From positions 1-43,703 of the forward strand of contig CAJXQX010000027.1 in NCBI GenBank assembly GCA_913058185.1: 43,703 nucleotides of DNA, given 5' to 3'. This stretch comes from an uncultured Verrucomicrobiota bacterium. GTDB taxonomy: Bacteria; Verrucomicrobiota; Verrucomicrobiia; Opitutales; Opitutaceae. The translations under genes and the position numbers were made by a program. A model generated the notes under the pieces. That model made no database searches and was not told where the DNA came from. It worked only from the letters and a program-made list of their open reading frames with translations. This document shows positions 1,596 to 31,500 of this stretch, piece by piece. Within the stretch, counting starts at the first letter, position 1, and each line of letters opens with the position of its first letter.

Positions 1596-1637
1596 AGGTT
1601 GATAGGGTGGTGGCGCTAAGAGGCAGGATTATTTTTT

Positions 1638-1733
1638 GCCCACGGAATACACGAAAGGCTTCGTCTACCGACTACGCACTGAAACGGGGATTATAGTGCA
1701 GGTTGGTTTTGTGGATTCTGTGCCTTTTGTGGC
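1638..1733. repeat. Imperfect inverted repeat, MITE-like
   Basis: The left arm at 1638-1658 (GCCCACGGAATACACGAAA) and the reverse complement of 1707-1733 (containing GGCACAGAATCCACAAAA) match at about 13 of 18 positions. The element fills much of the 228-bp gap between the first two sulfatases. It resembles the dispersed intergenic inverted repeats common in Verrucomicrobia and Planctomycetes. No ORF lies inside it. Confidence 0.4.
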
Positions 1734-1823
1734 TATAAATCTGGAGACAGGGGGGAAGATGTTTCAAGAACGAGAACGAGTAGGAGGGGAGAGTTAGAGT
1801 CCGCCGTCGCTTCCTTAGGGAAG

Positions 1824-3458: not shown

Positions 3459-3696
3459 GGAGTGGGGTAGGGGTGGCGCGGAGTTGCAGCGAAGAATCAA
3501 CAGGTCCGAGCGGGGGAAGTGATTCTACGAACGTGGACTGCTGCGCTGCGACATTCGAACACCTTGTTTGCTGAACCCTTCACCTGTTGATGGGGCAGGG
3601 GGGGGGCTCCTGATTCCGGCGGGGTTGAATCAAATTTGCCAGCAAATGCGTTGTCCTCGCGGGCTCTAGGTTCGTAGGCTTGGTCCTCCAATACCT

Positions 3697-10901: not shown

Positions 10902-12971
10902 CTACGGACTCGGTGCCAGATAGAGCTCAAACAACGCCGTGCCGGTCTCGCCGTTGGCGCCTTCGACGGCGACGGTGTAGAGGCCTTCCTCCAACGAAAC
11001 TAACATGGCTGAGTCGAGACTGTTGGTGGTCAGGGCGAACGCGCCTGATGCGGTGGCCGCATCTTCGGTCGATGGTTCCGCGCTCCAATTGTCATTGGTT
11101 GCGATGGTAATGCCGTCGCGATAAAGGGTCATCTTCGGGTCCGCCAAAACTCCATTGACGCCAAAGTCGGACAACCCGGGACCGACGGCTCGAATCAGAA
11201 GTCGGGCGACTCCGGAGCCTTGGACGACAAATCCGGGAACCAGACGATCATCACCCGTGCCGACAAAGGCCCGGGTCGAGGTGTTGACCACTTTTAAGGA
11301 CTCGTTGGCGACCGCCCCATCGTAAACTTCGAGTAACGTTACTCCGGCATCGTTACCGCTTGTCTCAACCGGGGTGGTGTAACTGCCGGCGCCGAGACTC
11401 ACCACGATTGCGGCGTCGTTGCTCCCACTGCCGAGGGGGAATCCGCCAACCTCGGCAAACGTCGTGCCGTCGGCTGGAAGCCATTGGGAATTGGTGGCGA
11501 GCGTGTCGCTACCCGAGATCAGTGAAAGGGAGGGATCGGCCAGCACCCCACTGACGCCAAAGTCGGCCAGCGTCGGACCCACGGCTCGAATGACCATGGG
11601 TTTGGTATTTTCGCCCGCCAGGACGAAGCCCGGGATTGGGGTTCCGGCCTCCGCGCCGGCTCGGGCCCGGACCGAGATGTTGATTAAGCCGACGCCGTCG
11701 TTGCTGGAAAAATCGGAGCGCATCCGAGCGAGTTCTTGATTCAACTTCGCGTTCAGGCTGGCGGCGAGACCCGATTGGGTGGAGCTTAAATCGGAGTTCT
11801 CACCGGGATCAGTATCTAAGTTATGAATACTTCGATTACCGTTGCGATCCACCACCACTTTGTTGAGGCCGTCGAGGTAGGCGAACGTGCTTTGGGCAGC
11901 CACGATGACCGGGCGGGTTACATTGCGAGAGACGTCGAAGAATGCGGTAGATTGGTCGATTCCGTCGAGCGGCGACGTGGTGCCGGGGGCGGTCTCCGCG
12001 ATCGTCGCGAGGGTGGGTAGCCAATCAACATCGGCGATAACTTGATTGGAGACGGAACCGGCAGGAACGCGGCCTGACCACTTGACGATGCCGGGGAGGC
12101 GGATTCCGCCTTCGAAAGCCTGGCCCTTACCTTGGCTAAGTTCACCGTTGCTGCCATAATCGGCGTTGTTCACGGCACCATTATCGGACACGAATATGAC
12201 GAGTGTATCATCGTTGATTCCCTTGGTGTTGAGCTCCGTCAAAATTGATCCAACGGCGTTGTCCATACTCTCAATCATCGCCGCATAGGTGCGCCGCTCC
12301 GCACTTAAACTGGGGTAGTTGGCTTCCAAATCGGCTGGAGCCTCCAACGGGAGATGCGGCGCATTGAAACACACCAAAAGGAAAAGAGGGTCGGAGGTGT
12401 CGTGATTGCGAATGATGATCACGGCCTCGTCTCGAAATAGGTCGGTGGAGTAGCCCGTATCGGTGACGGGCTCCAAGTCTCGCAGCCAGCCGCGACGGCT
12501 GCCGCCATTGAGGGAGCCGAAGTAGTTTGTGCCACCACCGAGAAAACCGAAGAAGGAATCAAACCCGCGACTGGTCGGATAGTAATCAGTCGAGGTGTCG
12601 CCGACGTGCCATTTGCCTACGAGTCGGGTGGTGTAGCCGGACTGTTTTAGAGTCTGCGGCAGAAAGTGTTCGGCGAGGGGAGGGTTTCCGGTGCGCGGTG
12701 ATGTGATGCCGAAGCGATACGGGTTCCTGCCCGTGTAGAGGGCGACTCTGGTGGGCACGCAGGTCGGATGACCGTAGTAGCGATTGAGCTCCATGCCCTC
12801 CGTGCGCAATTGATCGAGATTTGGGGTGCGGGCATCACCGCCCCGCCACGAAATATCCCCCCAGCCCAAATCATCCGCGACCATCATCACGATATGGGGA
12901 GGTGCTGCAGAAGTATACAGCGTAAGCACCAGGCCCATGGTGACGAATCGACAGAAGTTAGAGTTATACAC
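10902..12971 (-). CDS. Secreted sulfatase with two C-terminal repeat domains
   Basis: A 689-aa modular protein. Residues ~26-415 are a sulfatase domain: metal ligands D33-D34 (VADDLGWGD), formylglycine motif C71-V-P-T-R, GKWH (119-122), APHLPLEA (204-211), SDNG (262-265) and GKGQAFEGG (281-289). The C-terminal third holds two related repeats at about 430-551 and 560-686. Each runs from an NxSxRA(x)G motif through PGFV, an IRAVGP-L-DFGV-GVLADP block and ATN-W, and ends in an LLEVYD/LFELY strand. Such repeats are frequent at the C-termini of exported verrucomicrobial proteins and probably serve surface attachment or carbohydrate contact; that role is inference. The N-terminal signal peptide is short (to about residue 23) and an internal Met12 start is possible. 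It is divergent from the dienelactone hydrolase stub. Confidence 0.92.
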   Translation of the reverse strand: MYNSNFCRFVTMGLVLTLYTSAAPPHIVMMVADDLGWGDISWRGGDARTPNLDQLRTEGMELNRYYGHPTCVPTRVALYTGRNPYRFGITSPRTGNPPLAEHFLPQTLKQSGYTTRLVGKWHVGDTSTDYYPTSRGFDSFFGFLGGGTNYFGSLNGGSRRGWLRDLEPVTDTGYSTDLFRDEAVIIIRNHDTSDPLFLLVCFNAPHLPLEAPADLEANYPSLSAERRTYAAMIESMDNAVGSILTELNTKGINDDTLVIFVSDNGAVNNADYGSNGELSQGKGQAFEGGIRLPGIVKWSGRVPAGSVSNQVIADVDWLPTLATIAETAPGTTSPLDGIDQSTAFFDVSRNVTRPVIVAAQSTFAYLDGLNKVVVDRNGNRSIHNLDTDPGENSDLSSTQSGLAASLNAKLNQELARMRSDFSSNDGVGLINISVRARAGAEAGTPIPGFVLAGENTKPMVIRAVGPTLADFGVSGVLADPSLSLISGSDTLATNSQWLPADGTTFAEVGGFPLGSGSNDAAIVVSLGAGSYTTPVETSGNDAGVTLLEVYDGAVANESLKVVNTSTRAFVGTGDDRLVPGFVVQGSGVARLLIRAVGPGLSDFGVNGVLADPKMTLYRDGITIATNDNWSAEPSTEDAATASGAFALTTNSLDSAMLVSLEEGLYTVAVEGANGETGTALFELYLAPSP

Positions 12972-15821: not shown

Positions 15822-15963
15822 GTCGAGACAGTTGAAGATCAAGGGGAAGAGTTGCGAAAGAGGAAAAGATTCCGGGAGTGGGGGAGCTTCCGATGTAATG
15901 GTTTCAAATCTTCCACGGAATTGATCGTTGCAGGCCGCACTGGGACGAGGAAGATTTGCAGGG

Positions 15964-17562
15964 ATGAGACGACTGTTTTCTACCCTTACCCTAACCCTCC
16001 TGCTGTCGGGCGTTGTGGCCAACGCCGCGGATGATCGGCCCAATATTGTATTCATTTTCACCGATGATCACGCTCCCCACGCCATCGGCGCGTATGATGG
16101 TTGGCTGAAATCGGTCAACCCGACGCCGCAAATCGATAAGCTCGCCCGTGACGGTATGCTGTTCGTGAACAGCTTCTGCACCAACTCCATTTGTGGTCCG
16201 AGTCGCGCCGTCATCCAGACCGGCAAGCACAGTCACAAGAATGGTTTCATGAACAACGGTAACTCGTTCGACTGGGACCAGCAGACGTTTCCCAAGTTGC
16301 TGCAGGATGTCGGCTACCAGACCGCGATTTACGGCAAGTCTCACCTCAAGGGAACGCCCCAAGGTTTCGATAGCTGGGCGGTGCTGCCAGGGCAAGGACT
16401 CTATTACAACCCGGACATGATCACCGAAAACGGAACGATCATGATCGAGGGACATGCCACCGATGTGGTGACCGATATGGCCGTTGAATTTCTGGAAGAG
16501 AAGCGTGATGCGAAAAAGCCCTTCATGCTCATGGTGCAACACAAGGCACCTCATCGTAATTGGATGCCGGCGCTGCGTCACCTCGACCTCTATGACAACA
16601 TCGATATCCCCGAGCCCGCTACGCTCTTTGACGATTACCTCGATAACGCTCCACCCGCGCGTCATCAGGAATTGGAAATCGATCGGCACATGCATCTGAA
16701 CTTTGATCTGTTCGTTGATTTGACCGCCGATTTTGAAGACGTGCCCGGACGTTTCGACCGCTCCGCTTGGCGCAACATGCAACGCATGTCGCCCGAGCAA
16801 CTAAAAGCGTGGGGCGATGCTTATGGACCGAAGGACGAAGCCTTTCATGCAGCTAACCCGAGCGGCAAAGACCTCGTGCGCTGGAAGTATCAACGCTACG
16901 CCAAAAATTATCTACGTTGTCTGAAGGGCGTGGACGAAAGCGTAGAGACGATTCGCAATACGCTTGATGAGCTCGGTCTCGATGAAAACACCATCGTGAT
17001 CTATTCGTCCGACCAAGGTTTCTACATTGGCGACCACGGCTGGTATGACAAGCGCTGGATGTATGAGGAATCGATGAAGATGCCCTTCATCGTGAGCTGG
17101 CCAGGTGTGACCAAGCCCGGTTCGAAGAACATCAAGCTCGTCCAGAATCTCGACTACGCTCAGACCTTCCTCGACATCGCCGGAGCCGTCCAACCCGAGG
17201 ACATGCAAGGTGCTTCAGTCGTCCCCTTGCTGAAGGGCGAGAACCCTGAAGATTGGCGCAAATCGGTCTACTACCACTACTACGAATACCCCAGCGTGCA
17301 CATGGTGCCACGCCACAACGGTATCCGGACGAACCGTTACAAGCTGATGCACTTTTATGAGTTCGATGAATGGGAATTCTACGATCTCAAATCCGATCCA
17401 GACGAATCTCATAACTTGTATAATAACGATGGATACAAGGCGCTGATCAAACGAATGAAGAACCAACTCAAGGGGTTGGAGGAACATTACGAAGACGACA
17501 GCGACATGGCCGTGAAGCCCAAGGCCTGGCAGGATAAAGTCCGACCCGGCACGGCCGGTTAG
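15964..17562 (+). CDS. Secreted sulfatase (N-acetylglucosamine-6-sulfatase/arylsulfatase-like)
   Basis: A sulfatase of 532 aa from ATG 15964, preceded by GAGGAAG ten bases upstream and followed at once by a signal peptide (MRRLFSTLTLTLLLSGVVANA). An in-frame ATG at 15928 is less likely. D34-D35 (FTDDHAPHA) bind metal, C77-G-P-S-R is the formylglycine motif, GKSHL (about 138-142) takes the place of GKWH, and SSDQGFYIGDHGWYDKRWMYEES carries the late Asp-Gln/His set typical of N-acetylglucosamine-6-sulfatase-like and heparan-active enzymes. The C-terminal EFYDLKSDPDESHNLYNN block is the common sulfatase tail domain. It is divergent from the broken kinase gene and followed by a strong terminator. 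Substrate unknown. Confidence 0.92.
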   Translation: MRRLFSTLTLTLLLSGVVANAADDRPNIVFIFTDDHAPHAIGAYDGWLKSVNPTPQIDKLARDGMLFVNSFCTNSICGPSRAVIQTGKHSHKNGFMNNGNSFDWDQQTFPKLLQDVGYQTAIYGKSHLKGTPQGFDSWAVLPGQGLYYNPDMITENGTIMIEGHATDVVTDMAVEFLEEKRDAKKPFMLMVQHKAPHRNWMPALRHLDLYDNIDIPEPATLFDDYLDNAPPARHQELEIDRHMHLNFDLFVDLTADFEDVPGRFDRSAWRNMQRMSPEQLKAWGDAYGPKDEAFHAANPSGKDLVRWKYQRYAKNYLRCLKGVDESVETIRNTLDELGLDENTIVIYSSDQGFYIGDHGWYDKRWMYEESMKMPFIVSWPGVTKPGSKNIKLVQNLDYAQTFLDIAGAVQPEDMQGASVVPLLKGENPEDWRKSVYYHYYEYPSVHMVPRHNGIRTNRYKLMHFYEFDEWEFYDLKSDPDESHNLYNNDGYKALIKRMKNQLKGLEEHYEDDSDMAVKPKAWQDKVRPGTAG

Positions 17563-17595
17563 TCGCGGCAACCCCAGCCGTTCATTTCCCCAAAT

Positions 17596-17621
17596 GCCCC
17601 GCATCAACGCGGGGCGTTTTT
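17596..17621 (+). terminator. Rho-independent terminator after the sulfatase
   Basis: A 7-bp GC stem, GCCCCGC (17596-17602) with GCGGGGC (17609-17615), a 6-base loop, then G and five T's (17617-17621), 33 bp after the sulfatase stop codon. It also lies just beyond the 3' end of the convergent small HTH ORF. Confidence 0.85.
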
Positions 17622-17625
17622 GTTG

Positions 17626-17805
17626 TCACAAGCTGAGTTCGTAGCGTGCGCTGCGTCCGGCTCCGATCGGGCGGAAAACACCGAGCTTGGCGAGTTGTTG
17701 TAGGTCGCGGGTGGCGGTGGCCTTGGACACGCGGTTGAGTGATACATATTTGCGGGCGTTCATTCCGAGGGTGCCTTGTAAAAGATCGTTGGGAGAAGGA
17801 GTCAT
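17626..17805 (-). CDS. Stand-alone Fic-type C-terminal winged-helix domain, 59 aa
   Basis: A 59-aa ORF starting at ATG 17805: MTPSPNDLLQGTLGMNARKY, then VSLNRVSKATATRDLQQL, AKLGVFRPIGAGRSARYELSL. The NARKYVSL...S.ATATRDLQ.L..LGV..P.G.GRS.RYEL pattern is the winged helix-turn-helix found at the C-terminus of many Fic-family AMP-transferase proteins. No Fic domain (HPFxxGNGR) exists upstream, so this is either a retained gene fragment or a free-standing DNA-binding protein. A palindrome (CTAGTTAAACTAG) sits just upstream of the start codon. I favour fragment slightly, but the intact start and stop leave expression possible. Confidence 0.6.
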   Translation of the reverse strand: MTPSPNDLLQGTLGMNARKYVSLNRVSKATATRDLQQLAKLGVFRPIGAGRSARYELSL

Positions 17806-17815
17806 AAGCTTTCTC

Positions 17816-17828
17816 TAGTTAAACTAGA
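17816..17828. promoter_or_regulatory. Candidate operator palindrome upstream of the HTH ORF
   Basis: CTAGTTAAACTAG, six-base arms around a central A, lies 10-22 bases upstream of the start codon of the 59-aa winged-helix ORF. A further TCTAGTT half site occurs about 15-20 bases further upstream. Autoregulation is inference. Confidence 0.35.
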
Positions 17829-17929
17829 ACAGGCCTGGCCTCTTCTAGTTTTTCAAGAGGAGAGAGGGATGAATCTGTCGAGGTATAGTGTAAGTCCGCT
17901 TCAATTATAGGTTCATGGTGAAGATGCGC

Positions 17930-19486
17930 TCAGTCCAACGGATCGGCCCAGCGAAGCATCTGCGTCGTGTCGACACTCACTTCAGTATCGTTCGATCCTA
18001 TGGAATCTTTGCGACTCGCTCCATTGGCCACGACCGCTCGGAGTTTTTCGCTCAAGCGCTGGGCGATCTCCGGCTCTTGCTTTACGCGATTATTAGCCTC
18101 GGCGATGTCTTCCTCCAAATTGTAGAGTTCAAGGATTCGCGGCTTTCCGCGTGATTCCCGAAAGTTCGGGTCTTCGTTCTTAAAAACGACTTTCCAAGGG
18201 CCTTCCAAATAAGCGAATTCGCCTCCGACGGAGTGACTCACAACATGATCCCGATGCGCTTGTTTGCTCTGGCCCAAAATCGTAGGTAAAAAGCTGATAC
18301 TGTCCTCACCCGCGTTCGAAGGTAATTCCACGCCCAACAGTTCCGCGCAGGTCGCGAACACATCGTTCAAGCTGAGAATATCGTCGCTCACTGACCCTGC
18401 CTCAATTCGCCCGGGCCAGCGTATCATGAAGGGCACGCGATGCCCGCCTTCCCATATATCGGCCTTTCGACCCCGGTAGGGTCCGCTCGGGAAGTGCCCC
18501 GCCTCTATGAGCGTCTGCCATTCGGTCGGCAGGTGCCCGTTGTCGGACGTAAAGATCACCAAAGTATCATCTGCAACTCCGGCATCTTCCAAAGCTTGGA
18601 TTACCTGTCCCGCCGACCAATCGGTCTCCATGATGAAATCCGCGACGAGCGAGATGCCACTTTGCCCTTTAAACTGCGCCGTCGGCACGATCGGGGTATG
18701 CGGCGACGTCATGGGAAAATACAAAAAAAACGGCTCCTCCTGCTTCGCTTGTTCGTGAATATATTTAACCGCTCTTTGGGTAATTTCCGGCAGGATCTGG
18801 TCGAACTTCCAGTCGGGCGCCATGGGATTCCCGTCAAATATCTGAGGTAAAGCTCTGCCATCGTTGGGAACGTATTCGAATTTCGCCGTCGGCTGTTCCA
18901 CCACGCGATCGTTTTCGATAAAGGTAAACGGGGGAAAGTTGGGGACATGCGTTCCAAAGTAATAATCGAATCCGCGCGTCGTCGGCCCGTTGAGGATAGG
19001 CTTCGTGTAGTCCCATTGTTTTGTCCGAAGAATATTCGGCGTTTCGTCCATCGCGTTTGGCTGTGGCCCCACCCAATTCCAGCCAAGGTGCCATTTGCCG
19101 ATACACGCGGTGGCATAACCGTCTTCCTCTAGAAACCACGGAAGCGTCAGGCGATCTACCGCAATCAGAGGAGGTTCGTAGCAGGCCAACACCCACTCCT
19201 GAAGTCGCGTGCGCCAGGCATAGCGCCCAGTCAATAGTCCGTAGCGGGTTGGCGTGCAAACGGCCGAGCCGCTATGTGCATTGGTGAACCGCATCGACTC
19301 CGCGGAAAAGGTATCCAAATGCGGAGTCGCGATTTTGTTTTTCGGGAAATGAGCCTGGATATCGCCTATCCCGAAATCATCCGCTAGAATGATAACAATA
19401 TTTGGCCGATCCTGAGCCTCAATCCTCGAACAGCCCGACCATACAAAAATTAGAGTTGAATAGATAAGTATTGAAATTCGCGTCAT
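17930..19486 (-). CDS. Secreted arylsulfatase A-like sulfatase
   Basis: A sulfatase of 518 aa from ATG 19486; an upstream ATG at 19531 would add 15 residues before the signal peptide and is less likely. The export signal MTRISILIYSTLIFVWSGC could be a lipoprotein signal with Cys19 as lipidation site, though Trp at -3 is unusual for a lipobox. Metal ligands D36-D37 (LADDFGIGD), formylglycine motif C77-T-P-T-R followed by YGLLTGRY, GKWHLG, SPHTP, SDNGH and GRKADIWEGGHRVPF follow in family order. GRYAWRTRLQ after the active-site motif is typical of the larger arylsulfatase A group. No terminator was identified between it and the small HTH gene downstream. Confidence 0.92.
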   Translation of the reverse strand: MTRISILIYSTLIFVWSGCSRIEAQDRPNIVIILADDFGIGDIQAHFPKNKIATPHLDTFSAESMRFTNAHSGSAVCTPTRYGLLTGRYAWRTRLQEWVLACYEPPLIAVDRLTLPWFLEEDGYATACIGKWHLGWNWVGPQPNAMDETPNILRTKQWDYTKPILNGPTTRGFDYYFGTHVPNFPPFTFIENDRVVEQPTAKFEYVPNDGRALPQIFDGNPMAPDWKFDQILPEITQRAVKYIHEQAKQEEPFFLYFPMTSPHTPIVPTAQFKGQSGISLVADFIMETDWSAGQVIQALEDAGVADDTLVIFTSDNGHLPTEWQTLIEAGHFPSGPYRGRKADIWEGGHRVPFMIRWPGRIEAGSVSDDILSLNDVFATCAELLGVELPSNAGEDSISFLPTILGQSKQAHRDHVVSHSVGGEFAYLEGPWKVVFKNEDPNFRESRGKPRILELYNLEEDIAEANNRVKQEPEIAQRLSEKLRAVVANGASRKDSIGSNDTEVSVDTTQMLRWADPLD

Positions 19487-19757
19487 TGAATTTGAGTCAG
19501 CGATTGATAGTCTGAAGAGCATGACCGGCAAGGGTCAGAATATCGCAATCGCGAACGACCCATTTGTCATCTCCATTCGCAGATCAGATTCGATCGATTC
19601 CATCCACGTTGCACCCGCCATGTTCTCTAATACCTTGCTCAGGTGTTTCGTTTTTCTGCGGTCGATGCGACGGCGAGGGCAGAGCGTGGTTCGGGCGGAG
19701 GCCGTTGGCGCAGGAGCAGGGTGACGATTTCGTTTTAGGCTTCGCGAAGAGCTGGGT

Positions 19758-20294: not shown

Positions 20295-21746
20295 TTAAGT
20301 GCCGCAGAAGGTTTCGGTCACGCGCTCATCGGAGGAAGGGGCTTGCTCGAGGTCGGAGAATTGTGCGTCTGCCGTGAAGGGTAGAGTGAGGGCATCGACC
20401 AGTCGATTAAACGGCACGAAGTCACCGCGGTAGCCGGCTTGAATGGCGGCTTCGATGCGATGATTGCGGGGAATGAGGATCGGGTTGGCCGCTTGCATTT
20501 TGGTGAGCTCAGTATCCGGCGATGCCACTGCGCGCCAACTTTCCAACCACGCGTTTGCATCGGTCTCGGCGGAGAACAACGCGACCACTTCGGCGGCGTC
20601 TTCGCCGGCAGCGACGCGCGTAAGGTGGCGAAAGAACAAGGTGAAATCGACCTCGTTTTTGGCGAGAATTTCGAGCGTCGATTTGATGAATTCTTTGCTC
20701 GAGTCGTTGGCCTCGGTGAGGCCCAGCTTGGCGCGGAATGCCGCCAAATACCCGGCTTGAAAACGGTCGGGAAAAATTGCCAGGGCCTGCTCGGCGAGTT
20801 TGATGGCGTCATCGCGATCTTCCGCGATGAGCGGTAACAACGTTTCGGCCAGACGAGTCAGGTTCCATTGGGCGATGGAGGGTTGATTGCCCCACGCGTA
20901 ACGCGCCCCGCGGTCGATGGAGCTGTAGACGCACTGCGGATGAAACCCGTCCATGAACGCGCAGGGGCCGTAGTCGATCGTCTCGCCGGAGATGGCGACA
21001 TTGTCGGTGTTCATGACCCCGTGGATGAAACCGAGCGGCAACCAGCGGATGATCAGATCACATTGCGCCGTGATCACGGCGGTGAGCAAGGCGAGGGCGG
21101 GATTGGCGGGGTCGTTTGCCGCGGGGTAGTGTCGAGCCAGCGCGTGGTCGACCAGGGCGCGCAACGCTTCGGTGTCTTCTTGGGCGGAAAAATACTGGAA
21201 TGTGCCGACCCGGATGTGACTGGCGGCCACTCGGGTGAAAACGCCACCGGCGAGCGGGGATTCGCGTTGCACCTCTTCGCCGGTGGTGACCGCCGCAAGG
21301 GCGCGCGTGGTGGGCACCCCGAGGGCGTGCATTGCTTCGCTCACGATGTATTCGCGCAGCACGGGGCCGATAGCCGCGCGGCCATCGCCGCCGCGGGACC
21401 ACGCCGTGCGGCCGGCGCCTTTGAGTTGGATATCGCGCCGATTACCATGAGTGTCGATGACCTCGCCGAGCAAGATAGCGCGACCGTCGCCGAGCTGCGG
21501 CACGAAGTTGGCGAACTGATGTCCGGCGTAAGCCTGAGCGATCGGTTGCGCCCCCTCCGGCACGAGGTTACCTGCCCATGTTGATACGCCCTCGGCTGAT
21601 TCTAACCAGGTGGAATCGATACCGAGTTCCGCTGCCAACCCGGGGTTAGCGCGGATCAGTTGAGGAGACGCTACCCGAGTGGGGGTTTGAGGAGCGAAGA
21701 GACGCTCGGGCAAACGAGCGTAGCTGTTATCAAAAGGAATCTGCAT
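20295..21746 (-). CDS. selO: SelO/YdiU protein adenylyltransferase (AMPylase)
   Basis: A pseudokinase-fold enzyme that transfers AMP from ATP to Ser/Thr/Tyr of proteins during the redox stress response. It has 483 aa, close to the ~480 of E. coli SelO. Visible landmarks are AGHQFANFVPQLGDGRAI (74-91), K109 in LKGAGRTAWSRGGDGRAA (ATP-binding lysine), E132 region VLREYIVSEAMHALG, H242-G-VMNTDN (metal-binding N/D) and D258 in IDYGPCAFMD. The C-terminus ends TFCGT; eukaryotic homologues have selenocysteine at the equivalent place and bacterial ones cysteine, which forms a regulatory disulfide. It follows the phytanoyl-CoA dioxygenase gene by 61 bp. Confidence 0.95.
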   Translation of the reverse strand: MQIPFDNSYARLPERLFAPQTPTRVASPQLIRANPGLAAELGIDSTWLESAEGVSTWAGNLVPEGAQPIAQAYAGHQFANFVPQLGDGRAILLGEVIDTHGNRRDIQLKGAGRTAWSRGGDGRAAIGPVLREYIVSEAMHALGVPTTRALAAVTTGEEVQRESPLAGGVFTRVAASHIRVGTFQYFSAQEDTEALRALVDHALARHYPAANDPANPALALLTAVITAQCDLIIRWLPLGFIHGVMNTDNVAISGETIDYGPCAFMDGFHPQCVYSSIDRGARYAWGNQPSIAQWNLTRLAETLLPLIAEDRDDAIKLAEQALAIFPDRFQAGYLAAFRAKLGLTEANDSSKEFIKSTLEILAKNEVDFTLFFRHLTRVAAGEDAAEVVALFSAETDANAWLESWRAVASPDTELTKMQAANPILIPRNHRIEAAIQAGYRGDFVPFNRLVDALTLPFTADAQFSDLEQAPSSDERVTETFCGT

Positions 21747-21807
21747 GCGAACAGCTACCCTATCACGGTTTTGAAGAAATGCGAATGGGCGTCATCTGCG
21801 CCGCCCC

Positions 21808-22632
21808 TCAATGCACGCGTTTGCCGTGCTTGCTGCGGTAGCGCGCGAGTTCGTGGTAGGCCTTGTTCGGGTCGGCGAATTTGTTGACGCCGGGGTCCTC
21901 GCCACTGGCCAGATAGAGTTGGTGCCACGGAAAGTCTTTCTCGTTCAGCTTGGTGTGTGAGCTGATGTAACGCATGGTGTAGCCACAGCGTCGCAGCGAG
22001 CTGGTGTTGGGAGGGCTGCCGTGAATCAGGCGCCCATCGTGCAAGCTGCAGTGATTGGCCTCCAACTCGATCGGCACGGCGGCGGTATCATTGCGTTGGG
22101 TCGGCGTGATCTCGGTGGGAAACACGGCGGCTTCCGTCGCGATGTCATCGTAGTCAGAAAACCCCAGCTTGCCGGAATTGTGGGTGCGCGGCACGACGGA
22201 CATGCAGCCGTTTTCGATGCGGGAAGGATCGATCGCCAGCCACACCGTGGCCACCTCCATCGGCTCGATCATACCTCTCCAATAGGCGGAGTCTTCATGC
22301 CAAGGCACCCGCTTGCCATCACCGGATGGCTTGCAGATGAAGTGGCTGGAAAAGAGTGCGATATCTGGACCCAGAATCGGCTGCACTAAACCCAATACTT
22401 CATCGGACAACAACCAATCGAACAACTTAGGATGCTGGAAGTGCGGCACATCCATGAGCTCGGGTCTCACGTCCGTCTCCAAGTCGTCGAGCAGATTTTC
22501 AAAGTAAGACTTCAATCCCTCAAACTTGGCGGCGGAGAAGACGGGTTCAGTAGGAATGACCCAACCTTCTTGGTTAAAGGTGTCAATCTGGGTCGAATTG
22601 AGTCGAGCTGGGCTGGGGTTCGAAAGGGGCAT
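21808..22632 (-). CDS. Phytanoyl-CoA dioxygenase (PhyH) family oxygenase
   Basis: A 274-aa Fe(II)/2-oxoglutarate oxygenase of the PhyH family. The iron triad is visible as H112-x-D114 (VPWHEDSAYW) and H204 (LHDGRLIHGSPPN); basic residues R214-R215 and R221 are placed to bind 2-oxoglutarate. WLAIDPSRIENGCMSVVPRTH is the conserved strand following the HxD motif. The domain is complete and cytoplasmic. Bacterial members hydroxylate varied small substrates, so the substrate cannot be named. The gene starts 73 bp from the divergent AraC-type regulator (to its ATG at 22706), the classic layout for local control, and heads a likely operon with selO and the TonB-like gene. Confidence 0.9.
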   Translation of the reverse strand: MPLSNPSPARLNSTQIDTFNQEGWVIPTEPVFSAAKFEGLKSYFENLLDDLETDVRPELMDVPHFQHPKLFDWLLSDEVLGLVQPILGPDIALFSSHFICKPSGDGKRVPWHEDSAYWRGMIEPMEVATVWLAIDPSRIENGCMSVVPRTHNSGKLGFSDYDDIATEAAVFPTEITPTQRNDTAAVPIELEANHCSLHDGRLIHGSPPNTSSLRRCGYTMRYISSHTKLNEKDFPWHQLYLASGEDPGVNKFADPNKAYHELARYRSKHGKRVH

Positions 22633-22705: not shown

Positions 22706-23548
22706 ATGGAGCCTGCCCACGCGCACTTTCAACTGACCGATTTTATCCAAACCGGAGAGGCGTATCACTTCGCTCGGGTGGAAGTGACCGAGGGTAATCA
22801 GGCGCGCTATCACAATCACGATTACCACGAGGTCTTCTGGGTCACCCACGGTGCTGGTCAACATCGGTGGAACGGCCGCACCGATGCGGTTGAGCCGCAC
22901 CAACTATTTTTAATAAACCCGCAGGACCGACATGGCGTGGGCAGCCAGGGAACGGATGCTTTGGGCATTATCAATGTAGCGTTTCCGAGCGCTGCTTGGA
23001 GTGCGATTCAGGCTCGATATTTTGAGGATGGATTTGATCCGTTCCTGGCCAGTCCTGCGGCCCGTCGGATCGCGCTCGATCCATCTGGCCGATCCACCCT
23101 GGATTTCTGGGCACGTCGATTGGATCGTCCCGGGCGCCCCGGGGTAGCGTTGGACGGATTTCTGATGGATCTGCCACGATTGATTCAACCGCTCGAGCCG
23201 GCCCCGACCCGCTTGCCGGACTGGTTGGAACAGGCCTGTCGGGAGATCGTGCGCCCTGAGAATTTTCGCCGAGGAACTCCGGCGTTCGCCGATTTAGCCG
23301 GCCGCACTCCGTCTCACCTTGCTCGAGCCACGCGACGCTGGTTGGGCCGCACGCCCAGCGACATCGTTAATGCGGCTCGCATGGAGTTCAGTGCCCATCA
23401 GCTCATCACCACCAATCGACCGATTGTGGAAATAGCTTTCGATTGTGGGCTGACGAATCTCTCGCATTTTTATGCTCTGTTTCGGCACGCCCACGGATTG
23501 AGCCCCCGCCGATACCGCCTGCGGGCAACTTCGCTGGTAAGCGGTTAA
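22706..23548 (+). CDS. AraC-family transcriptional regulator with cupin sensor domain
   Basis: A regulator of 280 aa from ATG 22706 (an in-frame ATG at 22688 would add six residues; neither has a clear Shine-Dalgarno). The N-terminal half is a cupin with a histidine-rich motif, YHNHDYHEVFWVTHGAG, then HRHGV-like loops (QDRHGVGS). The C-terminal ~95 residues form two helix-turn-helix units: FADLAGRTPSHLARATRRWL and the signature IVEIAFDCGLTNLSHFYALFRHAHGLSPRRYR. It is transcribed away from the phytanoyl-CoA dioxygenase gene and most likely controls it in response to a small molecule. The cupin metal site suggests a metal or small organic ligand; which one is unknown. Confidence 0.9.
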   Translation: MEPAHAHFQLTDFIQTGEAYHFARVEVTEGNQARYHNHDYHEVFWVTHGAGQHRWNGRTDAVEPHQLFLINPQDRHGVGSQGTDALGIINVAFPSAAWSAIQARYFEDGFDPFLASPAARRIALDPSGRSTLDFWARRLDRPGRPGVALDGFLMDLPRLIQPLEPAPTRLPDWLEQACREIVRPENFRRGTPAFADLAGRTPSHLARATRRWLGRTPSDIVNAARMEFSAHQLITTNRPIVEIAFDCGLTNLSHFYALFRHAHGLSPRRYRLRATSLVSG

Positions 23549-23839
23549 CTCACTCGCCGGTGCTGGCTTCGAGGATAGCCCGGTCGACATATTCGCGGGC
23601 TGGCTTTCAGTGTAAAACATGAACACCCAGCACCCGATATCGAAATACCGAATGCCGGGTGAAATAACACGACCAGCCCCCGTCTGCAGCCGAGGGGTGT
23701 TAGGTCGAACAAGTTAGATCGAAAATTGGGCGAGTGGTTCCATTCCGAGGGTCGATTTATCTGCGTTGGATAAAGCCGAATCCTGGAGACGGGTAAATAC
23801 CGGGAGTTCGATTCTTGCTGGTTCCGAGCCAGTCCTCAA

Positions 23840-24463
23840 TCAGCCACGTCCCGCGTAGGGTATTTGGTTGGCGGTTATGGTGAGGAAAGGGATGTTCACT
23901 TCGAGGGGTAGTTGAGCGAAGTGAAGAACCATGTCGGCGACATGCTGCGCGTCGAATAGCGGCTCGGGTCGGAGGGATCCATCGGCCTGCAACATGTCGC
24001 GACTCATGTTCTCAGAAACATCAATGGTGGCGTTGCCGATGTCGATCTGACCGCAGGCGATGTTGGAGGCGCGTTGGTCGAGGGCGATTGATTTGGTGAG
24101 TCCGGTGATGGCGTGTTTGGCTGCAACGTAGGGAGCGGCATTCGGTCGTGGGGCGTGCGCGGAAACCGATCCGTTGTTGAGGATGCGTCCGCCCGAAGGG
24201 GATTGGGACTTCATCAATCGCACTGCCGCTTGGGCGCAGAGGAAAGACTCGGTGACGTTGATGCCGAACAGAGTCTGCCATTGTTCAAAGGTGAGGTCTT
24301 CGAAGGCGGCTTTTGGTGTGGCGATGCCGGCGTTCCCGAGTAGTCGCTTCACATCCCGTTCGGTAAACCGGGCGACTTTATGGAAATCGAAATCGTGGAA
24401 CATCTCCCGAAAGGTTTCCCGTTTGTTTAAAATCGTGCGCCAGCTTGAAAACCTTCGAGACAA
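23840..24463 (-). pseudogene. Chimeric ORF: tag glycosylase segment fused to an SDR lacking its NAD-binding N-terminus
   Basis: The first ~47 codons encode a middle piece of 3-methyladenine DNA glycosylase I (SWRTILNKRETFREMF, then RFTERDVKRLLGNAGI). From NAGI (24323-24334) onward it is a short-chain dehydrogenase: AGIATPKAAFEDLTFEQWQTLFGINV, the catalytic Ser in NNGSVS, then Y-x-x-x-K in PYVAAKHAI. NAGI occurs naturally in both families (Tag LLxNAGIVR; SDR VNNAGI), so the join falls at shared sequence. The SDR lacks TGxxxGIG and the first two Rossmann strands, so it cannot bind NAD(P) normally. The frame opens at a TTG. It continues the tag remnant upstream in another frame. Confidence 0.82.
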
Positions 24464-24597
24464 ATCTTTTCAAAGAGACGCCGATCATCTGTCACCGGAA
24501 AGCCCCATTCCGTATCGTGGTATGGAATGAACTCTGGGACGTCGCCACACCAAGCGCAGCGAGCTTGGCTATCGGGACCCTTGATGGTCGCACTCAC
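24430..24597 (-). pseudogene. tag: 5' part of tag (3-methyladenine DNA glycosylase I), frameshifted
   Basis: A GTG at 24597 opens a frame reading ...SQARCAWCGDVPEFIPYHDTE, WGFPVTDDRRLFEKICLEGFQAG, the N-terminus of Tag with its conserved zinc cysteine and YHDxEWG motif. It then hits a stop, while the expected continuation (SWRTILNKR) is found in the next frame. The observed CAAGCTGGCGC would be repaired by adding ten bases between two copies of AGCTGG, so deletion between short direct repeats is the likely cause. The GTG overlaps the aminopeptidase stop codon as GTGA, so the two genes were once translationally coupled. The C-terminal half of tag is absent. Confidence 0.75.
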
Positions 24598-25796
24598 AGC
24601 TGAAATTCGCCGTCGCGGTAGATGACTTGGGTCGAGCCATCGGTGAGGTGGGCGGTGACGACGCGGTTGGAGGTCGCGACGATATCGGTGTGCACGACGG
24701 AGTTGTTGTAACCCATCTCAGCCCATTGCTCATCGGTGATGGTCGCGGGGGCTCCGGTGTAGGAATCGCGGTAGGCGGAACCTACGGCGATGTGGGTGTT
24801 ACCGTATTGGCCCCCGACGTTCTCGTCGTAGAGCGTAAGCCCCATGAACTTGGTGATGCGGGAAAAACGGCGATCGGTGAGGGAAAATTCACCTACCTTG
24901 TCAGCGTTTTCGACCGCGATCATTTCTCGCAAGAGTTCCTCGCCTTCGCTGGCCGTCGCCTTGGTGACGCGACCCGATTCGAATTCTAAATAGGCATCCT
25001 TGATCAGAGAGCCGTAGCGATAGAGCGGTTCGGTGAATTGGATGCGCCCGGAAGTGCCCCGCCAGTCGGGCGAGATGAACAACTCGAAGCTCGGAATGTT
25101 GCGGCCGGAACCACCCAGCCATTTGCGATCGGCGCCGACTTGCACCCACAGATCAGTGTCGGCCGCTTCGACGTGCAGCATCTCGATCGGCAGGGCGTCG
25201 AGCTTGTCTTTGGTGGCGTAGATATCGGTGTAGAGGGCCTGCCATTTGGCGGCCGGATTGGCCTCTTCAAGGTAACAGGCATTGATGATTTCGCCCCAGT
25301 ATTCCTCGAGCGACATGCCGACTTCATCGGCCATCGCTTGGGTGCCATACATGGCGAGGGTCCAGGTGTAGTTGCCCGCGCTTTCTTTCGCGCGGCGCCA
25401 GTCGATATAGGGTTTCATCGCCTTCTGTGCGGCCATGATCTTGCCACTAGGAATACCGCTCAGCTCCTGCTTATTGGTCTCGGCGATAATCACGACGGTG
25501 TGGTCGATTTCCTCGACCGTGCCTTGGTGGTATTTCTCGGCGAAGAACGCGAGTTGCTCGTCGTTGGCGAGCTCAAAGAACTCACGGCTAAAATCGTCGG
25601 GAGTGAAAAAGACGAGTGGATGGGCACCCGCTTTCAGCACGGCTCGGCGCAGCGCTACGAGCAGAGGTTTGGCGACCTCCGGGACCCGCAGCTGCACCAC
25701 CTCGCCGGGCTTGACGCCTTCGCCGCTATTCAAGGCGAAGTTGATCAGCACATCGGCGTAATTATCGAGCAGGTCGGCAGCGGGTTGGTATGACAT
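24594..25796 (-). CDS. M29-family aminopeptidase (AmpS/PepS-like)
   Basis: A 400-aa cytoplasmic metallo-aminopeptidase of family M29. The N-terminal domain (1-200) carries LLDNYADVLINFALNSGEGVKPGEVV, typical of the family. Metal ligands in the C-terminal domain are visible: E256 in FTEPLYRYG, E325 in YDENVGG, H335 in YGNTHIAVGSAY, H369 and D371 in VVHTDIV. Length matches family members (about 400-410 aa). The enzyme releases N-terminal residues from peptides and needs Co/Zn/Mg. Its stop codon overlaps the GTG start of the broken tag gene (GTGA). No signal peptide. Confidence 0.94.
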   Translation of the reverse strand: MSYQPAADLLDNYADVLINFALNSGEGVKPGEVVQLRVPEVAKPLLVALRRAVLKAGAHPLVFFTPDDFSREFFELANDEQLAFFAEKYHQGTVEEIDHTVVIIAETNKQELSGIPSGKIMAAQKAMKPYIDWRRAKESAGNYTWTLAMYGTQAMADEVGMSLEEYWGEIINACYLEEANPAAKWQALYTDIYATKDKLDALPIEMLHVEAADTDLWVQVGADRKWLGGSGRNIPSFELFISPDWRGTSGRIQFTEPLYRYGSLIKDAYLEFESGRVTKATASEGEELLREMIAVENADKVGEFSLTDRRFSRITKFMGLTLYDENVGGQYGNTHIAVGSAYRDSYTGAPATITDEQWAEMGYNNSVVHTDIVATSNRVVTAHLTDGSTQVIYRDGEFQL

Positions 25797-26068: not shown

Positions 26069-26341
26069 TCAGGAATAGTGGTAGCGGGCTTGGGCGAAAA
26101 GGAGTCGATCTTGTTTTACGATGTATACCAAGCGATGTTCTTGAGTGATTCGACGTGACCACACACCCGAACCGAGGTGGCGCAACGGTTCGGGTTTTCC
26201 GATCCCTTTGATGGGATCACGTCGAATCGCTTCGACCAACTCCAGAATTTTATGCGCAACCTTCCGGTCGGTGCTTATCCAGTATTTCAGGTCATCCAGA
26301 AAATCATGGTCAAAAACCAGTTCCCGCTGGAGCCCATTCAT
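26069..26341 (-). CDS. yoeB: YoeB-family mRNA interferase toxin
   Basis: A 90-aa RelE/ParE-fold toxin that cleaves mRNA in the ribosome A site when free of its antitoxin. The C-terminal block is diagnostic: GKPEPLRHLGSGVWSRRITQ followed by EHRLVYIV and QARYHYS, containing the catalytic Glu (KPEPL), Arg (WSRRI) and near-terminal His. Its ATG overlaps the antitoxin stop codon (ATGA, 26338-26341), so translation is coupled. The module appears complete. It sits between an REP-like repeat and the aminopeptidase gene. Confidence 0.93.
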   Translation of the reverse strand: MNGLQRELVFDHDFLDDLKYWISTDRKVAHKILELVEAIRRDPIKGIGKPEPLRHLGSGVWSRRITQEHRLVYIVKQDRLLFAQARYHYS

Positions 26342-26610
26342 GCTTTCACTTGAGCGGCCAATTTAGTTTGAGTCATCGATTTGCCTTGGCCGGACTCCAG
26401 CCGTTTCAACGCTCCGAGTAGTCGCTGTGCATTGGCCGGAGAGCGAAGCAGATGAGCGGTCTCCTCCATACTGCGCCATTCGTTTAAAGGTAGCATCACC
26501 ACCGACTCATGACCTCGTCTATCCATCACGACTGGTTCGCGAGTGGACACGGTTTCATCCCAGAATGAGGCAAGTTTATCGCGTGCTTCGGTGTAGGATG
26601 TTCTCGTCAT
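26338..26610 (-). CDS. yefM: YefM/Phd-family antitoxin
   Basis: A 90-aa antitoxin. The N-terminal half is the DNA-binding Phd/YefM domain (TSYTEARDKLASFWDETVST, then EPVVMDRRGHESVVMLPLNEW), and the C-terminal tail that wraps the toxin follows (ETAHLLRSPANAQRLLGALKRLESG). It precedes and overlaps yoeB by four bases. With the toxin it should repress its own promoter; palindromes 13-31 bases upstream of the start fit that. Confidence 0.93.
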   Translation of the reverse strand: MTRTSYTEARDKLASFWDETVSTREPVVMDRRGHESVVMLPLNEWRSMEETAHLLRSPANAQRLLGALKRLESGQGKSMTQTKLAAQVKA

Positions 26611-26774: not shown

Positions 26775-28271
26775 TCAGTTCTTTTCCGGCCCCGTGTTCT
26801 CCATGAACACGTCCCAAGTGTAGGTTTGGCGGCCGAGGTATTCGATGGTGTCGAAGAAGTCGGTGCGGCCGTTGAGGCGCGGGTCGCCTTCGGCTTTGAG
26901 CATGGCCATCAGTTGGGCGTGAAGGTGAGCCATGACGGCCGTGTGGTCGTCAGAGTCGGCGAGGTTGTTCAGGCAATCGGGATCTTCGTTGATAGCGAAG
27001 AGTTGGCGGGTCGGACGTTTGCCGAAACTATCCGCCGTGTAGTGGTCGTCGCGCTCCAGTAAGTGAGTCTTGGTGGGCGATGCATCGACGTTGCGGTAGT
27101 CGGTCTCGGGATTTCCGGCAGGCCAACGTTCGGAATGGAAATTGTAGACGTAGAGGAAGTCGTCGGTGCGGATAGCGCGGGCGGGGTAGCCCCAGTCGTT
27201 GGGTCGGCCCACGTCATGACGTTCCTTGCCGGTGAGCATGATATCGCGGCTGGCATCGACTCGGCCTTCATCGGGCGAGCGAAGGACATTCGCGAAACTT
27301 TTGCCCGTAAATTGAGCATGAGGCGTGAGTCCAGCGGCCTCCAAGAATGTTGGAGCGAAATCGCGCACGTTGATGAAATCCGTCACGACCCGGCCGGCGG
27401 GAGCGTGGTCGCCCCAGCGGACGGCCAACGGAAGATGGAATCCCATTTCGTAGATCTGACCTTTGACCCGCGGGAAGGGCATGCCGTGATCGGACGTCAT
27501 GACGATGATAGTATTATCCAGCTCGCCGATTTCGCGGAGGTGTTCGAGCACCCGCGCCACGTGGGAGTCATACCACTCCACCTCGATGGCGTAGTCCAAC
27601 ATGTCGCTGCGGATGATTTCGTTGTCTGGGTAGAATCCGGGCACATCGACCGTATCCAGAGACTTACCTCGGCGCAGACCGTTGCCCTCTTCGTAAGCCC
27701 GATGCGGTTCTTTCGCGCCGAGCCAAAAACAGAAAGGTTGGCCCTCGTCGCGTTGAGGCAGGAAGTTTTCGATGAAGTTGCGGGCGTAGTCCTGGGTGGA
27801 CATCGACTTCCCGGGAGGGTCGGTTTTAAATTTGTCGTAGAGCGGGCCGGCAGGGTTGTGCTCTCGGTAATCTTGGAACTCGCCGGGTCCCCATCCTTTG
27901 CCGGTTAAGCCTACATGGTATCCTGCTTTAGCCAAAAGATCCGGATAGGTGATGAATTGCTCCGGCCAGCGGTTCCAATGGCTGATGCCCTCTTCGAGCT
28001 GCCAGGAGTTGCGGCCCGTCGTGATACTCGCGCGGCACGGAGCGCATTTCGGGTTGGAAGTGAAGGCGTTGGTGAAGAGCACACCTTCGCGGGCGATACG
28101 ATCGAAGGTGGGCGTTTCGACGAATTTCGATCCGTAAGCACCGGCGTGGGGCCAGCCCCAGTCGTCCGCGATACAGAACAAAATGTTTGGACGACGGTCA
28201 TCGGCTGCGGAGAGCAGACCGGCGGTGAAGAGGAGGGTGAAAAGCAGCCAGCAACGGCGAGAGGTAAGCAT
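26775..28271 (-). CDS. Secreted sulfatase with CAPCR active-site motif (heparan N-sulfatase-like)
   Basis: A sulfatase of 498 aa from ATG 28271, where a clear signal peptide begins (MLTSRRCWLLFTLLFTAGLLSA). The frame stays open to 28460, but the extra 63 residues read through a dispersed repeat and are not credible. Metal ligands D36-D37 (IADDWGWPH), the formylglycine motif C76-A-P-C-R followed by ASITTGRNSWQ, GKGWGPG in place of GKWH, KEPHRAYE, and SDHGMPFPRVKGQIYE match N-sulfoglucosamine sulfohydrolase-like enzymes. The fourth motif position is Cys where Ser, Thr or Ala is usual. It is divergent from the Tat-exported oxidoreductase. Substrate not known. Confidence 0.92.
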   Translation of the reverse strand: MLTSRRCWLLFTLLFTAGLLSAADDRRPNILFCIADDWGWPHAGAYGSKFVETPTFDRIAREGVLFTNAFTSNPKCAPCRASITTGRNSWQLEEGISHWNRWPEQFITYPDLLAKAGYHVGLTGKGWGPGEFQDYREHNPAGPLYDKFKTDPPGKSMSTQDYARNFIENFLPQRDEGQPFCFWLGAKEPHRAYEEGNGLRRGKSLDTVDVPGFYPDNEIIRSDMLDYAIEVEWYDSHVARVLEHLREIGELDNTIIVMTSDHGMPFPRVKGQIYEMGFHLPLAVRWGDHAPAGRVVTDFINVRDFAPTFLEAAGLTPHAQFTGKSFANVLRSPDEGRVDASRDIMLTGKERHDVGRPNDWGYPARAIRTDDFLYVYNFHSERWPAGNPETDYRNVDASPTKTHLLERDDHYTADSFGKRPTRQLFAINEDPDCLNNLADSDDHTAVMAHLHAQLMAMLKAEGDPRLNGRTDFFDTIEYLGRQTYTWDVFMENTGPEKN

Positions 28272-28346
28272 CCCGCCAATCTGATCGAAGGAGGCAGAAC
28301 ATGCCAAACAGGAATCACTGAAGCGTTTGGGCTGGGGCAACGCGAT

Positions 28347-28412
28347 GTCGGGCATAAAGCCCGACCCACCCGGCAACAGGCGGTGCGATGTGGGTCGGGC
28401 TTTATGCCCGAC
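28347..28412. repeat. Inverted pair of 23-bp palindromic repeats
   Basis: A 23-base unit starting GTCGGGCATAAAGCCCGAC at 28347-28369 is followed, after 20 bases, by its exact reverse complement at 28390-28412. Each unit is itself a hairpin (GTCGGGC-ATAAA-GCCCGAC). It lies between the sulfatase and the divergent oxidoreductase gene, as BIME-type REP doublets do. Confidence 0.8.
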
Positions 28413-28495
28413 ACTATTCACGTTGACCAATCGGGGGATCGACTTGTTGGGGTCGATCAACTGAAGTGTCTGGGACCCTTAATACTTTCTTCCCC

Positions 28496-29897: not shown

Positions 29898-30263
29898 TTA
29901 ACTTGGTTGCGCGTGGTCTGCTTTGGTGGACCAGTCGGCGTGGCACTGGGGTGAGCCGCGGGCGAGGTCGCGGCAGGTTTGGGGGCGTTGCTCGTAGATG
30001 GCGCAGACGAATTGAAGGCCATTGGCGCTGGGCTTAATTTCCAACGCAGCGCAGTGCCCTTCGGACATGCGCATGAAGGCGCGGTTGTTTTGCCACCTCA
30101 CCCAGTGCTCAGCATTGGCGCCGAGGCGTTGATGGTCGTCGCCGGTCACGACCACGTAATTTTTGGCCGGCGAAAAACAACAGGCTCCGCACGACAAACA
30201 CGCTGGGGGGTGGAAGGAGGCTTCGGACGAGTCCGAATGTGGGGGAGAGGATGGAGTGGGCAA
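29898..30263 (-). CDS. YkgJ-family cysteine-cluster protein
   Basis: The conserved core reads CLSCGACCFSPAKNYVV, then GHCAALEIK, FVCAIYEQRPQTCRDLARGSPQC: a CxxCxxCC-type cluster with later Cys residues matching the YkgJ/UPF0153 family of probable iron- or zinc-binding proteins. The start is uncertain. The frame is open to 30665, but upstream text is unlike protein and would overlap the divergent RDD-like gene; I suggest the TTG at 30263 (121 aa). The function of the family is unknown. It converges on the oxidoreductase gene with a 40-bp gap. Confidence 0.7.
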   Translation of the reverse strand: MPTPSSPPHSDSSEASFHPPACLSCGACCFSPAKNYVVVTGDDHQRLGANAEHWVRWQNNRAFMRMSEGHCAALEIKPSANGLQFVCAIYEQRPQTCRDLARGSPQCHADWSTKADHAQPS

Positions 30264-30414
30264 AGAGCCTGACCGTGAGGCCGAGGGATGGAGCCTATTC
30301 AGGAGTTTTGGAATCGACGAGCATCGAAGTGAGATGGGATTGCGGTGCTCGGGCGGAATGGTTTCATTGAGGGCTCCTTTCTTATGTCCGAAGAACCATC
30401 CATCGAAGCTATCA

Positions 30415-30932
30415 GTGCCCGAGGAAGCTTCCTCGCCGCAATGCCGCACGGGCGTGGTCGACCGGGAGCGTTTGCGGATCGATCCGGCGTTGTTGGACAC
30501 GCCCCTGGCTAAGTGGTGGCAGCGCGGTGGGGCGAGGGTCATCGATCTTGCGGCGATTGGCGCGTTGTCGTTGTTGGCTAGTCCGGTGCTAGGGTTACTT
30601 ACCGGCGCGACGTTGGCGACTTTAGGGACGCGGCGAGAGAGTGGATCGAAAGTGTGGCAGCTCATTCGCTGGGCTTTGATTGGGTTGGGAGGCGTGGTGA
30701 TCGTCCTATCGGGATTTATGTTGGCGGGTAATCCGCTGGTGCGAACGGGTGCCTTTAACCTCTCCGCAGAAAAGGATGCTCCTGATCTAGCTGCGGTGGT
30801 GGTGGCGCCGAACGCTTCGTCGCGAGACTTAAGACGAGCGGTCGATCAGTTGGACGTGCAGGTGGAGTGGCTCCGGGCTGAGAATGCCAGCTTACGCGAC
30901 GAGATTCGCGGTAACTCGTGGCTGCGGCTTGC
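30415..30932 (+). pseudogene. RDD-like membrane protein, C-terminus replaced
   Basis: The frame from GTG 30415 encodes a hydrophilic start (VPEEASSPQCRTG), then RLRIDPALLDTPLAKWWQRGGARVID-LAAIGALSLLASPVLG, resembling the first helix of RDD-family membrane proteins. A second helix (LIRWALIGLGGVVIVLSGFML) and a short coiled coil (LRRAVDQLDVQVEWLRAENASLRDEI) follow. After about 30917 the reading continues in a frame that overlaps a LysR remnant and then stops at 30999. The start is uncertain: an ATG at 30384 opens a different frame and no Shine-Dalgarno is evident. It may have been a full gene cut by the deletion that also removed the LysR N-terminus. Confidence 0.5.
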
Positions 30933-31500
30933 GGCCAAATCCTATCGTTGGAAGATGACCTCGGCGCGAAGCTGTTCGAACGCAGTCCGTTCAAGCTGAC
31001 CACTTCGGGCGAGGAACTCTACGAATTTGACCGACCGTTTTTTGAAAACCTGCATGCGACGGCAGAGCGTCTTCGACAAACATCATCGCCCAGCCTACGC
31101 ATCGGTGCCTCGCCGGCCGAAATTGAAGTCGGCGGAAGATCTTTGGCGCAAAGACGTGATCGAAGAACCGCTGATTTGTCTGCCGGCGACAGAAATGATC
31201 ACTCGAGTTTTTCAGAAGGGCCTACAGCAACGCAAAATCGATTGGCCCCATACGATCGAAGCGAGTTCCGTTGGACTCGTGACGCGTTACGTCGCCAATG
31301 GTTATGGTGTCGGGGTGAGTGTCGCGGCTTCAGAAGCGGTTAAGCATAAAGATGTGCGGGTGCTTCCACTCGAAGATTTCGATTCGATCGAGATCGCCCT
31401 CTTGAGCAACGGAAAGCCTACCCCGCTCGTGGAACACGTCCTCGAAGCCTGCCGGCAGGTCGTCGCAAAAGAGTGGCCGAAGTCACAACGGATCGATTGA
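30933..31500 (+). pseudogene. LysR-family regulator remnant, lacking its HTH and part of the effector domain
   Basis: The first piece (QILSLEDDLGAKLFERSPFK, then LTTSGEELYEFDRPFF, LRIGAS) is the end of a LysR helix-turn-helix domain plus linker. Homology then resumes in another frame near 31120 as RPKLKSAEDLWRKDVIEEPLICLP through VANGYGVGVSVA to the natural C-terminus at 31500. The first ~25 residues with the DNA-recognition helix and an internal stretch of roughly 70-90 residues are missing, and the two pieces are out of frame. An open frame from 31027 covers the C-terminal half but has no matching N-terminus. Not functional as a regulator. Confidence 0.75.

Follow-up and report, generated by a model that had tools for sequence, protein, structure and literature searches.

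Gene loss through RecA-independent (illegitimate) deletion between short repeats has been discussed as part of reductive evolution in Streptococcus agalactiae (PMC3637634). The locus described here, in an uncultured member of the Opitutaceae, resembles the S. agalactiae deletions in that coding sequence appears to have been lost at a short common run and a relative keeps the intact gene. It differs in belonging to an unrelated bacterial group and in being known from its scar alone, not from the parental arrangement or the length of the repeat. Among the titles retrieved from the literature on tag and pseudogenes, none deals with this case.

Two protein families meet at the locus. The first is Tag, 3-methyladenine DNA glycosylase I (PF03352), a DNA-repair enzyme, of which profile positions 1–82 are present, in two frames, whereas positions 83–177 are lost and the frame is broken. 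The second is the classical short-chain dehydrogenase/reductase (SDR; PF00106/PF13561), here reduced to its C-terminal two thirds, in which the S, Y and K positions are present, the N-terminal cofactor-binding part being gone. We take the N-terminal TGxxxGIG to be the SDR cofactor motif and Ser, Tyr and Lys to be the catalytic residues of this family; the C-terminal His and Cys of Tag presumably form its zinc site.

Results

The window, that is, the whole stretch of 43,703 nucleotides that was analysed and to which all positions refer, makes up contig 27 of a draft genome of 4.09 Mb that is split into 159 contigs. The ORF listing places a hybrid ORF of 207 aa on the minus strand at 23840–24463. 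It reads ...ERDVKRLLGNAGIATPKAAFEDLT..., with NAGI encoded at 24334–24323. Two Pfam families match this one ORF: Adenine_glyco (PF03352) at residues 7–49 (profile positions 40–82 of 177, E = 1.4e-12) and adh_short (PF00106) at residues 37–153 (profile positions 77–190 of 195, E = 2.8e-21). The original prediction, that Tag switches to an SDR at NAGI (24323–24334, minus strand), is thereby borne out: the join is in frame, both families lie on one ORF, and homology to the same-genus genome G005 ends at 24323. Equally well founded is its claim that the join takes away the C-terminal half of Tag and the N-terminal cofactor-binding part of the SDR, as can be seen from the Pfam profile ranges and from intact relatives. 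Two unrelated genes of the same strand are cut at a single point, in the manner of a deletion scar, and the run common to tag and SDR at this point (24323–24334) is at most 12 bases long.

The SDR remnant, the C-terminal two thirds of the gene, occupies 23840–24334 on the minus strand and was delimited by the PF00106 profile and eight intact relatives. It aligns to residues 86–252 of the 252-residue SDR of genome G127, to which the retained part is 65% identical. The eight intact relatives (seven of 252 aa, one of 255 aa) have 87 to 90 residues ahead of NNAG; measured against them, about 87 N-terminal residues are missing, namely everything before NAG. The window lacks the TGAGSGIG found near the start of all eight. 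It retains the S, Y and K positions, with NNGSVSAH and PYVAAKH where the relatives have NNGSISAH and PY/AY...KH. A search of this genome for the SDR front turned up no close copy but only paralogues, of which the best by E-value is 38% identical and none of the 19 listed exceeds 43%. At an E-value of 1e-30 the SDR has matches in 29 of 150 genomes of the family, its own included; the other 28 belong to other genera, G127 being the best, and the six other same-genus genomes listed have no match at this threshold.

The tag remnant carries a second lesion, overlooked in the original prediction, about 110 bases upstream of the junction. Its first part (24427–24597, minus strand; a 56-aa ORF matching Adenine_glyco profile positions 1–39, PF03352 E = 2e-13) starts with GTG at 24597 and runs for 56 codons to a TAA past a 10-base gap. 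The gap was located by alignment to the G005 tag, relative to which the window has 10 bases fewer at about 24441–24447 (minus strand). The second part (24323–24445, minus strand; profile positions 40–82) has the same residue as G005 in 37 of 41 codons. Profile positions 1–39 and 40–82 thus fall in two frames, the second from about 24445, and translation from tag's own start does not enter the hybrid frame, because the gap upstream shifts the frame. In other words, of a single-frame Tag domain of about 177 profile positions only 1–82 are left, split over two frames, and the segment with the His and Cys of the presumed zinc site, present in the G005 protein as HVPNC, is absent from the window.

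Elsewhere in the genome the best match to the C-terminal half of Tag reaches only E = 0.17, with 31% identity and two stops. A candidate second tag copy on contig C147 was rejected: its Pfam match is weak (E = 0.35, below the cut-off), its frame is interrupted by a stop, and a different kind of ORF, 266 aa long and on the same strand, overlaps it. Since the lost parts of tag and SDR do not appear in other contigs, they were more likely lost than moved elsewhere, as far as a draft genome can tell. Over both parts of the tag remnant (the four bases at the break being counted in each), 84 of 93 codons encode the same residue as in G005, and 40 of the 52 base differences are at third positions. 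Since the codons still look conserved and the differences are mostly at third positions, tag diverged mainly as a working gene, and its lesions are young.

Directly upstream lies an intact M29 aminopeptidase gene (24594–25796, minus strand; PF02073, E = 7.8e-92), the stop of which shares 4 bases with tag's GTG start, just as in G005. The two M29 proteins are 90% identical (dN/dS 0.06); among four named relatives the nearest, from a metagenome-assembled Opitutaceae bacterium, is 75% identical. Window positions 23000–25796 match 15 of the 38 genomes searched, including all eight of the same genus (its own among them). G005 aligns over 24323–25796 at 82% in blastn, ending exactly at 24323, and has an intact tag directly behind M29, about 202 aa from its GTG and covering profile positions 1–175 of 177. 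With the G005 Tag protein as query, five of the eight same-genus genomes gave a match: its own (broken), G003 (74%), G004 (76%), G005 and G001, where the match is partial (44%) and at another place. The same query found no Tag in G002, G006 and G007, one of which is only 69% complete. Because no tag was thus found in three of the seven other same-genus genomes, its loss seems to be tolerated. The genome under study has three HhH-GPD matches, putative glycosylases with unassigned substrates, and no match to an AAG-type glycosylase.

The original prediction called for a comparison with relatives having separate tag and SDR genes on the same strand. No such relative is among the 16 stretches compared, and in none of them do the two genes stand side by side; only tag was found in place, in G005. 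The eight SDR stretches from other genera have no tag, and the seven stretches of other same-genus genomes have no SDR (three of them have tag, one of these three being only 3 kb long). Four M29 peptidase loci were found, and the one that was compared (L017) has neither gene. Both flanks of the scar lie on one G005 contig, with M29, sulfatase and oxidoreductase genes on one side and PhyH, SelO and a TonB-like gene on the other. Between tag and SelO, G005 has about 6 kb encoding an FG-GAP protein, an H+-pyrophosphatase, a protein with no Pfam match and a PEP-mutase-like protein; in the window, the SDR remnant and an AraC gene stand there instead. A search for the H+-pyrophosphatase in this genome, run with no positive control, gave no match at E = 1e-10. 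Given these 6 kb of other genes, the H+-pyrophosphatase included, the local history involves more than one clean deletion. We also observed that the order of SelO and PhyH is reversed between window 20295–22632 and G005 L021:12773–15094 relative to the common neighbours. In addition, a 44-base segment flanked by the AraC gene and the SDR remnant (23678–23721) shows 84% identity to G005 DNA preceding SelO (L021:12547–12590), perhaps a leftover of an old arrangement or a small repeat.

At the junction itself, the window differs at one of the 12 bases from the G005 tag and at one from the G127 SDR. These two genes agree with each other at 10 of the 12, and their longest perfect run is 6, one base of which lies outside the 12. 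Of all joins possible for this pair of genes (464,508), the shared run is at least 5 in 3,621, at least 6 in 1,191, at least 9 in 51 and at least 11 in none. When the G005 tag is paired with each of the eight SDRs in turn, runs of 10–12 bases are present elsewhere, and in no pair does the junction rank among the six longest common runs listed. The short common run of at most 12 bases is therefore, as judged from these alignments, a suggestive candidate for the deletion site. The original prediction regarded the four residues as natural to both families. NAGI does occur in some members of each; it is not fixed, since the three full-length Tags of the same genus have GNAGI, TDAGI and QNAAI and the eight SDRs have NAGV, NAGT or NAGI. 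An imperfect 19-base inverted repeat (24306–24324 and 24542–24560) touches the junction, and by our own estimate this is about what chance would give in 2.1 kb.

Several other features of the window deserve mention. About 6.6 kb from the NAGI junction, at 30163–31500, a membrane protein gene runs into the remnant of a LysR-type regulator. The homology of the membrane protein to its RDD-family counterpart in G005 ends at about 30935, its C-terminal part being lost. At this point the regulator sets in partway through its DNA-binding domain, which matches PF00126 from position 32 on with E = 1.2e-4, short of the cut-off. The regulator remnant is split over two frames, PF03466 matching in another frame (E = 1.5e-8). 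This second join fits a general decay of genes in the region. A YoeB-like toxin and Phd/YefM antitoxin pair (26069–26610) separates the M29 peptidase gene from a sulfatase-like gene; the corresponding interval in G005 measures only about 140 bases. Six sulfatase-like ORFs, as read from ORF translations, are present in the window (69–3500, 10902–12971, 15928–19531 and 26775–28460). Inside the 5' end of the longest such ORF in the last of these regions, at 28347–28412, a 19-base near-palindrome occurs twice in inverted orientation, where chance would give 0 such pairs. Similar DNA occurs in G005 at L021:5018–5086, and the element looks like a REP-type repeat. Because it falls within the 5' end of the ORF, the true start of this sulfatase-like gene is probably further downstream.

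Discussion

Based on these observations, we think it probable that the junction is the scar of a recent deletion that left two dead remnants of a tag and an SDR gene of the same strand. According to the proposed scheme, the ancestor would have had the M29 peptidase gene followed by tag on the same strand, as G005 still does, with an SDR gene further downstream. The end of tag, the front of the SDR and any DNA in between would then have been lost in a deletion at a short run that encodes NAG(I) in both genes; strand slippage or some other RecA-independent process is the probable mechanism. A separate 10-base deletion would have broken the frame of tag. From the scar we infer that tag and SDR were once neighbours, that a deletion rather than an insertion joined them and that a short repeat was used; the order in which the two events took place is likewise inferred. 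The original prediction had spoken of a textbook short-homology deletion. The in-frame joining of two same-strand genes, the truncation of both and the intact tag of G005 agree with that description; it presumes, in addition, a repeat in the parents and a former tag–SDR adjacency, and the two genes stand together in none of the 16 stretches compared. The scar is most likely an instance of short-repeat, RecA-independent deletion.

The two remnants might also have been brought together by an insertion, in which an SDR fragment, perhaps with the adjoining AraC gene, joined into a tag that lost its end, so that tag and SDR were never neighbours. In its favour, the six other same-genus genomes listed have no SDR match and the closest SDR found, at 65%, is from another genus; the gene content from tag to SelO is unlike that of G005, and none of the 16 stretches compared matches the AraC gene at E = 1e-3. 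However, the same strand and the in-frame join at a common NAG are simply explained by a deletion, and no transposase or integrase family was detected in the three scanned ORFs of the interval (AraC, the hybrid and the first tag part). We therefore regard insertion as unlikely, though the most credible of the alternatives. That the junction or the 10-base gap was produced by the assembler or by sequencing errors is suggested by the draft state of the assembly (159 contigs, 2% contamination) and by the otherwise good conservation of the remnants. Yet the words that assemblers normally use are longer than 12 bases, so that a common run of at most 12 bases would be too short for them, and no other contig yielded the missing parts of tag and SDR. 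The idea of a mis-join of distant contigs was rejected, since the two flanks lie together on one G005 contig. On balance, an artefact seems distinctly improbable.

A hybrid ORF expressed as a working fusion protein with a new role is harder still to reconcile with the data. The frame is open for 207 aa, and the SDR part, which breaks 7 of the 64 columns invariant in 19 relatives, resembles in this the two most isolated intact relatives (8/72 and 7/71), the other 17 breaking 0 to 2; as a measure of relaxed selection these counts have to be set against its longer tree branch (0.36 versus 0.13 for G127). Against a fusion, a TAA bars the hybrid frame from tag's own start, and the C-terminal half of Tag and the cofactor-binding front of the SDR are both gone. 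With the tag frame broken upstream and both domains truncated, a working two-domain fusion was rejected, and we consider expression in a new role extremely improbable. Just as little credence is given to the SDR part, with its catalytic positions still conserved, being translated from an internal start and useful without its own cofactor-binding front, the fusion then being a young new gene.

The locus carries a warning for automatic annotation, in which the 207-aa ORF might pass for a two-domain enzyme, since its Adenine_glyco and adh_short matches both exceed the Pfam cut-offs. We see no wider consequence of the join, which looks like ordinary gene decay rather than a new protein and provides an example of gene loss through local rearrangement.
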